Assembly: GCA_947426455.1 (NCBI GenBank)
Contig: CANEEC010000001.1
Location: forward strand, 1 to 64,000
Length of the DNA: 64,000 nucleotides
Direction of reading: 5' to 3'
Source of the DNA: an uncultured Clostridia bacterium
GTDB taxonomy: Bacteria; Bacillota; Clostridia; Peptostreptococcales; Anaerovoracaceae
Both the position numbers and the translations under genes were made by a program. Shown here piece after piece: positions 9,772-34,134 of this stretch; the first letter of the stretch is position 1, and each line of letters starts with the position of its first letter. The notes below the pieces were generated by a model. That model did not search any database. It was not told the origin of the DNA and saw nothing but the letters and a program-made list of their open reading frames with translations.

Positions 9772-11142
9772 TTATTTTCCCAGGCAAAACCGGGCAAACA
9801 CCTCTTCGATGATGGTACCGCTGACGGTCTCGCCGATAATTTCACCCAGCGCCTCAAAGCACTGACGGACATTGACTTCCAGAAAGTCCAACGCTTCGCC
9901 GCGACGGCACATGGACAGCGCCATCTGTATTTCTTCCTTTGCCTGTTTCATCAGATCCGCATGGCGCACATTGGTGATAAGAAGCCGGTTTTCCTGGGTT
10001 ACCTGCCCCTCGAAAACCATATCATAAATCAGATCTTCTACCTCTTTTACGCCTTCGCCGCTTTCCATGGAGGTGAGAATCACCCTGCTTTCGGGCATCC
10101 ACTGCTTGATCTGCGACTCCGTCACTATCTGAGTTAAATCCGCTTTGTTTATCAGAATCAGAGTTTTTTTGTTCCGAACACCATCGGCAATCTCCCTGTC
10201 CTCCCGGCTGATTTCCCGACTCCCATCCAGAACGAAAATCACTAAATCCGCCTGATTCAGAGCCTCTCTGCTCTTTTCGATCCCAATTTTTTCGATGATA
10301 TCTTCGGTGCTTCGAATTCCCGCCGTATCGATGAGCTTTACCGGAATTCCCCGCAGGCTCATGGATTCTTCAATGATATCTCGGGTCGTTCCCGGAATAT
10401 CGGTGACGATGGCTCGGGATTCTCTCAAAAATCGATTCATCAGCGACGATTTTCCCACGTTGGGTTTCCCGATGATTGCCACCGACAATCCCTCCCGCAG
10501 CAAACGTCCCGTTCGGGCGGTACTCAAAAGCTTGTCCACGTCGTCTTCAATCGCCTGCAGCTGACTTTCCAGCGTTCCATAGGTAATTTCCTCGATATCC
10601 TCGTCGGGATAATCCAAATTCACGGTGATGTTCACTAAAACGTCCATCAGTTTGGCGCGAATTTCCTTGATTTCTCTGGAAATGGAACCTTCCATCTGAC
10701 CCATGGCAACATCGAAGCTGCGGTCGGTTTTGGCGCGAATCAGGTCGATGACTGCCTCCGCCTGAGACAGGTCGATTCGCCCATTGAGAAACGCCCGCTT
10801 GGTAAATTCCCCCGGCTCCGCCATGCGCGCACCCCATTGAAGCGTAAGAGCCAGCGTCTTTCTGAGAGCCACAATACTTCCGTGGCAGTTAATCTCCGCC
10901 ACATCCTCCGTAGTATAGGTGTGAGGACCTTTCATATAAACCGCCAACACCTCATCCACTACGCTGCCATCCTGCGGATCGATGATCTTTCCATAGGTCA
11001 TTTTTCGATTTTCTATGGGTCTTTGCCGCATGGGAACAAAGATGCGTTCCAACACATTTTTGGCCTTAGGTCCGCTGATGCGGACGATGCCGATGCCGCC
11101 TTCTCCCCAGGCTGTCGCTACCGCAGAAATGGTATCTTCCAT
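9772..11142 (-). CDS. mnmE: tRNA modification GTPase MnmE (TrmE)
   Basis: Potassium-dependent GTPase partner of MnmG. The N-terminal tetrahydrofolate domain starts [24 protein letters not shown]. The inserted G domain begins at about residue 220 with [16 protein letters not shown] (G1), DIPGTTRDI (G2), DTAGIR (G3) and NKADL (G4). The C-terminal catalytic signature is FCLGK, a conservative variant of the common FCIGK. Length 456 aa is normal. The 273 bases between it and the upstream gene contain the repeated stem-loop element at 11219-11334, oriented toward this gene. Confidence 0.98.
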
Positions 11143-11218: not shown

Positions 11219-11334
11219 ATTATACCATATTGACTAAGCTCTGTCTGCGCCTTTGGCGCAATGTTGGATATGGTGCAATCGTTCCTTCCTTGCGGCAACG
11301 CCGCAGGTCAATAGTTGGAACTATTATATCACAA
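11219..11334 (-). repeat. copy A of a ~115-bp tandem stem-loop element
   Basis: Close match, on the opposite strand, to 34022-34134. On the minus strand it reads TTGTGATATAATAGTTCC..., then two stem-loop units, ending ATATGGTATAAT. The inner hairpins here are TGCGGC / GCCGCA and TGCGCC / GGCGCA. The second unit keeps the outer ACCATAT / ATATGGT stem although the flank beside it has changed. It lies 77 bases ahead of the mnmE start. Confidence 0.9.
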
Positions 11335-12916: not shown

Positions 12917-12936
12917 TACATACATAAAACTTTCTT

Positions 12937-13050
12937 TTCTTCTCTCATCCAGACTGTAACTGTCGGTTTTGGAATTTCACCAAATCAGCCGCCGAAACGG
13001 GTCGCGGACTATCACCGCCGGTAGGGAATTTCGCCCTGCCCCGAAGAACT
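12937..13050 (-). ncRNA. FMN riboswitch (RFN element)
   Basis: The minus strand shows the conserved RFN blocks in order: TTCTTCGGGGCAGGG, GAAATTCCC, ACCGGCGGT, AGTCCGCGA, GATTTGGTGAAATTCC, AACCGACAGT and AGTCTGGATGAGAGAAG. These are the invariant strands of the six-helix FMN aptamer. FMN binding is expected to favour the downstream terminator and switch off ribU and the creatininase-family gene. Confidence 0.97.
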
Positions 13051-13068
13051 TATTCTTTTTACCCTTTC

Positions 13069-16782: not shown

Positions 16783-17889
16783 TTAATTGGAAATTCTAAC
16801 AGGCAGTACTAAATATTCGAAGGCGTCGCCTTCTACCGGTTTGATCATACAGGGACTGACGCTGGAATTGAACTCCATGTGGATTTCATCATCGTCGATG
16901 ACCTTCATAACATCCAAAAGGTACTTGGAATTGAAACCGATCTCCAGATTCTGCCCTTCTCTTGCAATGGAGATTTCCTCTTTTACATTTCCTTCTTCGG
17001 AGCGGGAGGTCACCGTCATGGAAGTTTCGTCGATGGCCATGCGAATCAGATTGTTTCTTCCGTCTCTGGCAAGCAGAGATGCCCGCTCGATGCTCTCCAA
17101 AAATTCGCTTCTGGAAACTCTGACTCTGGTCTGATGCTCTTTGGGAATGACGTTTTTAAAATCGATAAACTGTCCCTCCAGCATGCGAACTACGATTTTT
17201 GTATCGCCGGTGAGGAACATGGCTTTTTTCTGATCTAATACAATGTCCATATTGGGTTCGTCACCGGAATCCATAATGACCTTATTGACCTCGTTTAAGA
17301 TTCTGGCAGCGATGATCATCTTCTGGGCGCTGTCGCCCTGGATATGTTCTCTGGTGATGGCCAGCCGATATCCGTCCAGCGCCACCATCTGCACCAGGTC
17401 TGACGAAATATCGATCAGTACGCCCAAAATGATTCCCTTGGATTCGTCCACACTGGCGGCAAAGGAAGTTCTGCGCACCATATCCTTAAACAACTCCTTT
17501 TCCAGGCGGATAGAGTTGGTTTCGTCCACGTCGCCGGTATTGGGAAACTCGTCGGCAGGCTGGCAGACGATAGTGAATTCAGAATTCATGCAGCGCACAA
17601 CCGCCGTATTGTTTTCTTTTTCTTCGATCTCCACCATACCGGAGGGGAGCTTTCGAATAATGTCGCTGAACAATTTAGCGGAGATGACAAGAGAACCCGC
17701 TTCTGCTACTTGTACGTCAATTTTCGTTTCAATGGATAATTCCAGGTCAGATGCGGTCAGCGTCAGCTGGCCGTTTTCCGCTTCTAAGAGAATTCCCTTT
17801 AAAATGGGAATGGTGGTTCTGTTGGTAATAGCTTTGGATACCACATTGAGAGCTTTCGCTAATGTCTGTTGTGGGCATGTGAATTTCAT
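16783..17889 (-). CDS. dnaN: DNA polymerase III beta subunit (sliding clamp)
   Basis: Ring-shaped processivity clamp. The 368 residues start MKFTCPQQTLAKALNVVSKA with TNRTTIPILKGI, the usual clamp N-terminus, and end EYLVLPVRISN, matching the family C-terminus that forms part of the binding pocket. GGAGGCCGCCTC precedes the ATG. The gene begins immediately beyond the origin's AT-rich unwinding segment. Confidence 0.98.
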   Translation of the reverse strand: MKFTCPQQTLAKALNVVSKAITNRTTIPILKGILLEAENGQLTLTASDLELSIETKIDVQVAEAGSLVISAKLFSDIIRKLPSGMVEIEEKENNTAVVRCMNSEFTIVCQPADEFPNTGDVDETNSIRLEKELFKDMVRRTSFAASVDESKGIILGVLIDISSDLVQMVALDGYRLAITREHIQGDSAQKMIIAARILNEVNKVIMDSGDEPNMDIVLDQKKAMFLTGDTKIVVRMLEGQFIDFKNVIPKEHQTRVRVSRSEFLESIERASLLARDGRNNLIRMAIDETSMTVTSRSEEGNVKEEISIAREGQNLEIGFNSKYLLDVMKVIDDDEIHMEFNSSVSPCMIKPVEGDAFEYLVLPVRISN

Positions 17890-34021: not shown

Positions 34022-34134
34022 TTGTGATATAATAGTTCCAACTATTAATTTGCGGCGTTGCCGCAAGGAAGGAACTATTGCACCATATCCAACATTGCGC
34101 CAACGGCGCCAAGATCGGAAGGATATGGTATAAT
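34022..34134 (+). repeat. copy B of a ~115-bp tandem stem-loop element
   Basis: Two successive stem-loop units. Unit 1: AATAGTTCC (34031-34039) pairs with GGAACTATT (34071-34079) around TTGCGGC / GCCGCAA. Unit 2: ACCATATCC (34082-34090) pairs with GGATATGGT (34121-34129) around GCGCC / GGCGC. Both ends carry TATAAT (34028-34033 and 34129-34134). Copy A is at 11219-11334 on the other strand. Each copy points toward the downstream gene, here the dehydrogenase at 34171. Confidence 0.92.

Follow-up and report, generated by a model that had tools for sequence, protein, structure and literature searches.

Several groups of short bacterial repeats offer points of comparison for the element described here. 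Miniature elements derived from the IS200/IS605 transposons carry hairpins near both ends and insert directionally next to a short target, without requiring a target duplication. The BOX elements of Streptococcus pneumoniae are modular, contain a variable number of internal stem-forming units and lie near genes; we know of none that sits on a -10 box. The Correia elements of Neisseria possess terminal inverted repeats and duplicate TA. These elements, together with other promoter-carrying prokaryotic MITEs, are approximately 100-200 bp long, non-coding and dispersed, are located mostly 5' of genes and carry a sigma-70-like promoter (PMC10969869). REP sequences and BIMEs are short imperfect palindromes, often grouped, which have been proposed to be mobilised by tyrosine transposases; REPs are found mostly downstream of genes and are tagged with GTAG or CGTC (PMC3733652).

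The repeat family that we have analysed in the Anaerovoracaceae resembles each of these groups in part. Like the Correia elements, it is short, non-coding, dispersed and located upstream of genes, and it has extended -10 boxes with predicted promoter activity. In contrast to them, it lacks terminal inverted repeats, its apparent target is a -10 box, its orientation is fixed, and it forms chains of units with a common TATAAT. It differs from the REP/RAYT system in its position (upstream of genes, at -10 boxes) and in that the transposase class is missing in several carriers. With the IS200/IS605-derived elements it shares hairpins near both ends and directional placement next to a short target, but several of its carriers are without a Y1 transposase and the putative target is a promoter hexamer. 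Compared with BOX, the sequence plan is different.

The window (the whole analysed stretch of DNA, 64,000 nucleotides) contains two copies. Copy A, as read directly in the window sequence, occupies positions 34026-34134 of the plus strand, on which all of its parts are given here. At its left end lies T1, the extended -10 box TGATATAAT (34025-34033, with TATAAT at 34028-34033), which is the putative resident promoter box. Stem-loop 1 (34034-34076) is composed of the arm AGTTCC, a loop, the GC hairpin TGCGGC-GTT-GCCGCA (34051-34065), AGGAA and the arm GGAACT, and is followed by the anti-box ATTGCACC (34077-34084), which could pair with either TATAAT and is not itself a reverse -10 box. In stem-loop 2 (34082-34129), ACCATATCC...GGATATGGT are placed around GCGCC-AAC-GGCGC. 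The element ends with T2, GGTATAAT (34127-34134, with TATAAT at 34129-34134), the candidate element-borne -10 box, and 36 bases separate it from the ATG (34171) of a gene for a D-isomer specific 2-hydroxyacid dehydrogenase (PF02826; 34171-35118, plus strand). An AAGGAA purine tract is present in the element loop. The RNA fold of copy A beats all dinucleotide shuffles (z = -4.3), and the two DNA strands fold about equally well (z = -4.7 and -4.4 against dinucleotide shuffles).

Copy B lies on the minus strand (11219-11330; T1 at 11328-11323, T2 at 11224-11219), approximately 77 bases ahead of the start of mnmE (9772-11142, minus strand), and is 94% identical to copy A over its first 88 bases. 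An earlier reading of the window, made from the sequence alone, had ascribed the same plan to both units of both copies. This is correct for copy A, whereas the 3' half of the second stem-loop of copy B has been replaced by another sequence, AGACAGAGCTTAGTC, so that only the outer 7 bp and the small hairpin are kept. Elsewhere in the window, an FMN riboswitch (RF00050, 114 bits) was found at 12933-13052 on the minus strand, 5' of a gene for a membrane protein resembling a riboflavin transporter.

The genome from which the window derives (G000; 1.89 Mb, 154 contigs) yielded 8 strong blastn matches and three weaker left-end remnants. A covariance model (R1), built from 8 sequences, located 8 full-length or near full-length places and two weak ones in this genome; further copies are situated on the window's contig just beyond its end, at 65491-65601 and 68654-68745. 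In the G000 copies homology begins at the first TATAAT and stops at the second, while the flanks are unrelated, and such multiple copies in unrelated surroundings characterise a dispersed repeat family. This bears out the sequence-only reading, which had proposed a dispersed element and had considered that there might be two copies only, or that the similarity might be part of a longer duplication: neither is the case, given the matches within the genome, the many relatives in other genomes and the limits of the similarity at the two TATAATs.

R1 matches were present in 21 of 149 sampled genomes of the Anaerovoracaceae, with 20-28 matches in each of G098 and G075, and the copy numbers differ strongly between sister species of one genus. 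Across the order, 13 of the 247 genomes searched were positive, all of them belonging to the Anaerovoracaceae, and other families of the order showed no element. A search of 84,980 species genomes with the exact core pattern revealed 39 stretches, whose carriers include Emergencia timonensis, Anaerovorax odorimutans SL.3.17, Clostridium aminobutyricum DSM 2634 and Bacilliculturomica massiliensis (Emergencia, Anaerovorax and Bacilliculturomica are listed under Anaerovoracaceae). No match to the element was obtained in the plasmids, phages and viral contigs searched. Within G098, an 87-bp unit is identical at two loci (unit 2 of L080, and L082) and 97% identical at a third with unrelated flanks. 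We conclude that the repeat family is real and lineage-restricted. It is also apparently undescribed, as had been supposed from the sequence: Rfam 15 gave no match at the gathering threshold and none up to E = 5 on the region, and a search within the open-licence literature (weak evidence of absence) returned reviews and comparators and no published description of the family.

The unit of the family follows the plan TATAAT - stem-loop 1 - anti-box (ATTGAA/ATTGCA) - stem-loop 2 - second TATAAT. Arm pairing of the first stem was examined in 121 distinct first halves, collected without requiring that the arms pair. In stem 1, 95% of arm positions are paired (70% after shuffling), 91 of the 121 units have perfectly complementary arms, and 17 different perfect arm sequences occur; for stem 2 the corresponding pairing is 91%, against 70% in shuffled sequences. 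Both-sided changes affected 10 of 30 pairs in a small starting alignment, a value reached by none of 500 shuffles. The near-identical copies L001 and L004 of G000 differ by a swap of the whole arm pair, both arms having changed together. Changes in the arms are mostly double, and the single-sided departures comprise 17 G-T and 26 A-C pairs, in a count that omits the one base adjoining the second -10 box. Selection on RNA would favour G-U; since G-U is not preferred over A-C, structured RNA is not well suited as the main function, and the pattern is better explained by a palindrome at the level of DNA, or by a copying process that preserves the complementarity of the arms.

Among 106 TATAAT units with perfect arms the anti-box reads ATTGAA in 81 and ATTGCA in 14, the rest being close variants; the perfect mirror, ATTATA, occurs in none of the 106, which indicates that the units maintain the palindrome and at the same time avoid a -10 box in reverse orientation. 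The constant flank observed in the family is TATAAT/ATTGAA. In one array of G149 (L200) the box is TATACT and its mirror AGTGAA, and the base preceding T2 forms a standard pair with its mirror partner in 94 of 98 units.

The units are chained head to tail, with the TATAAT common to neighbours, and the earlier suggestion of a duplicated structural module is supported. Chains comprise three units in G098 (L084) and at least seven unbroken ones in G075 (L111), and up to nine were clustered by the array script. At L080, unit 1 is followed by a foreign unit, identical to that of L082, and then by a partial copy of unit 1, with the joins at TATAAT, an arrangement expected if a whole unit had inserted after TATAAT within an existing array. 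The last unit of many arrays is incomplete, with a length of roughly 7-35 nt, which either variable trimming or copying past one unit would produce. Other repeats also occur in the vicinity of the elements. In G012 (L019, L024 and L026) the element forms chains with hairpin modules of other kinds (TATAATGTCCGCATAGCGGACATTATA... and ATTATACCATGATGGCCTGCGGCCAGTCATGGTATAAT), joined at TATAAT, and in L200 of G149 other dispersed repeats of approximately 350 and 180 bp, present in tens of copies, adjoin elements (635-1000 and 16837-17210).

Under simple ORF rules, 60 of 80 distinct arrays are immediately followed by a gene of the same orientation and one by a convergent gene, the remaining 19 being unclear. 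The extended form TGnTATAAT is found at T1 in 86% of 78 first units, compared with 16% of the 188 further TATAATs that these loci contain, and matches to the -35 hexamer are better upstream of T1 than upstream of T2 (p = 6e-10) or of other TATAATs (p = 0.0015). Judged by these features, T1 is most likely the resident extended -10 box of the target promoter. The sequence-only reading had placed a TATAAT at both ends of the element; both are indeed present, but the first most likely represents the resident target box and is not element-borne. The sequence common to both ends is at most TATAAT (6 bp), and the preceding base differs at some loci (GATATAAT/GGTATAAT at mnmE). The flanking TATAATs may have arisen by duplication of a 6-bp target, or one may be the target box and the other a box brought by the element; both explain the data equally well. 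The ends are direct repeats (TATAAT...TATAAT), with the inverted repeats internal, and the earlier remark that terminal inverted repeats are lacking stands. Terminal inverted repeats and mariner-type TA insertion were rejected, because the ends do not match.

The downstream genes are not common to the genomes, with one homologous pair of products (38.9% identity). A shared regulon was rejected on these grounds, as the genes are unrelated apart from this pair and no shared functions were seen. Intrinsic terminators were looked for and none was found, and a short leader peptide after the AAGGAA tract was dropped from consideration, since its frame (inspected by eye) is not conserved. A related hairpin is present at the 3' end of apparently the same gene in two genera (L050 of G154 and L051 of G133), where it overlaps the last codons in antisense and may be retained as a terminator-like structure.

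The comparison with empty sites in sisters, suggested in the sequence-only reading, was carried out for seven promoters; it showed that the sister species have one -10 box at these promoters, and revealed one clean two-sided empty site. The latter is locus 1 of G098 (L201), both flanks of which align with G176 (left 39/50; right score 34, against a shuffled maximum of 20). Here G176 reads ...CTATAATTATGTTATAATGGAGAATAATAATTAAAGATGATAG, and G098 reads ...CTGTATTTGTGGTATAAT-(unit-TATAAT-GATTCCAAAGATTG)-AGGATAAAATTAAAGATGATAG. Elsewhere one flank or the -10 box alone could be aligned. At locus 2 and locus 3 (G155 array, several units), of genus g90, the alignment covers the right flank, and the sister promoter contains one -10 box. 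One box is likewise present in the sister at locus 4 (genus g90), in the pair G149/G086 and at mnmE, where the left-side alignment is slightly above chance in a count that includes the fixed TATAAT letters; mnmE of the sister species G002 and G003 is preceded by one TGTGATATAAT. At the dehydrogenase promoter, G002 and G003 each have one TGATATAAT, and G004 has TGTGTATAAT; these sister promoters are too diverged to have alignable flanks, and that of G002 may carry a decayed one-hairpin version.

Three of the four species compared at locus 1 have different versions of the element at the same promoter, G175 and G155 carrying others. This could reflect retention and function instead of fresh insertion, and promoters may either act as hot spots or retain the element. 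At the orthologous dehydrogenase promoter of L187 (G001:C293), a hairpin repeat of another kind, GTCTACACC...GGTGTAACAGATACC, was observed directly after the same TGTGATATAAT; a second, decayed unit is also present, and parts of its inner motif (GCGATTGGCAAGCC and GGCGCAGACAGAGC) recur upstream of L002 and within L005.

We propose, with a probability of roughly 0.6, that the family is a miniature, non-coding, hairpin-forming mobile repeat of the Anaerovoracaceae, whose insertion site is the -10 hexamer of promoters. A unit would enter immediately 3' of a TGnTATAAT already resident there, in a fixed orientation, and would bring a TATAAT of its own at its far end, so that the gene would keep a usable extended -10 box near its start. 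The new TATAAT could serve as the next target, which would generate chains of units with a common TATAAT. Recognition would probably involve strand folding (single-strand or cruciform), and the strand concerned may be the non-template one, opened in promoter complexes; the units presumably move as units, and T2 presumably drives transcription. The copies, the chains, the exact -10 position, the orientation, the single-box sister sites and the compensated arms are direct observations, and a mobile repeat is supported by the dispersal with unrelated flanks, the -10 position, the 60 to 1 orientation, the sister sites, the chains, the DNA-level pairing and the lack of downstream genes in common between genomes. 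The promoter-carrying mobile element envisaged from the sequence alone thus gains support at the level of sequence, with movement and promoter activity as its conjectural parts. Against a mobile repeat, PF01797 is missing in several carriers, no gene-carrying relative was seen, just one empty site is clean on both sides, the differing versions at locus 1 could point to retention, and variable partial end units would also be expected from local duplication and deletion.

The Y1 transposase (PF01797) is present in the carriers G075, G096, G032 and G155 and absent from 10 of the 14 carriers searched, including the single-contig, element-rich G098. A RAYT/IS200 Y1 transposase as the mobiliser within the same genome was rejected because of its absence from most carriers searched, and no gene-carrying or longer relative was found among the matches in the examined genome contigs. 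A miniature element derived from a single-strand transposon of the IS200/IS605 or REP/RAYT type would account for the two subterminal hairpins without terminal inverted repeats, for the fixed orientation beside a short target with a target-like right end, and for the internal stretch complementary to both box sites. However, with PF01797 missing from G000, G098, G012, G149, G093 and G014, and with no autonomous copy seen, we regard such an origin as quite improbable.

Two further explanations place the function of the repeat in gene control. A cis-regulatory structured RNA or attenuator, in which two stem-loops in the leader transcript control the downstream gene, would agree with the strong folding, the compensated arms, the sense-direction position ahead of genes and the AAGGAA purine tract in the loop. 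It is nevertheless unlikely: transcription from T1 would start within the 5' arm of the first stem, which could then not fully form in its own transcript, the downstream genes are unrelated, and neither a terminator nor an Rfam match is present. The symmetry of the G-T and A-C departures and the mostly element-free orthologous promoters further weaken this alternative, which the sequence-only reading had entertained. Slightly better odds, although still low ones, may be given to a supercoiling- or protein-responsive promoter array, in which the -10 box is part of an extrudable palindrome, the family marks promoters under the control of a DNA-binding protein, and its units spread by recombination. 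The location of the box within a stem, its covariation with the anti-box (TATACT/AGTGAA in L200), the strand-symmetric pairing and the promoter with versions in three species all favour it, but the arms that would have to be bound differ completely among copies, shared gene functions were not seen, and the numbers of copies are very different in sister species of one genus.

As a mobile repeat, the family would behave much as a promoter-carrying MITE or a single-strand element does, yet it has the defining features of neither: terminal inverted repeats, a certain target duplication and a known transposase are all lacking. There is a sizeable chance that the -10-targeting behaviour constitutes a new mechanism. 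A fuller version, possible but rather doubtful, is that transposition targets the -10 hexamer, probably as single-stranded DNA in open promoter complexes, and rebuilds the -10 box at the element's own 3' end, so that the insertion is tolerated and each one creates the next target; the arms would change in concert, and the enzyme would belong to a type that has so far not been associated with elements of this kind.

Should the mobile-repeat reading prove true, the repeat would parasitise promoters without breaking them, by landing on the -10 box and supplying a replacement, which would explain how stacked rows of promoters have been acquired in a bacterial lineage. It would also be a natural case of promoter rewiring and of DNA that is hypervariable in sequence and constant in structure. 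Clostridium aminobutyricum and Emergencia timonensis are examples of culturable hosts in which the targeting of DNA opened by RNA polymerase could be tested directly.
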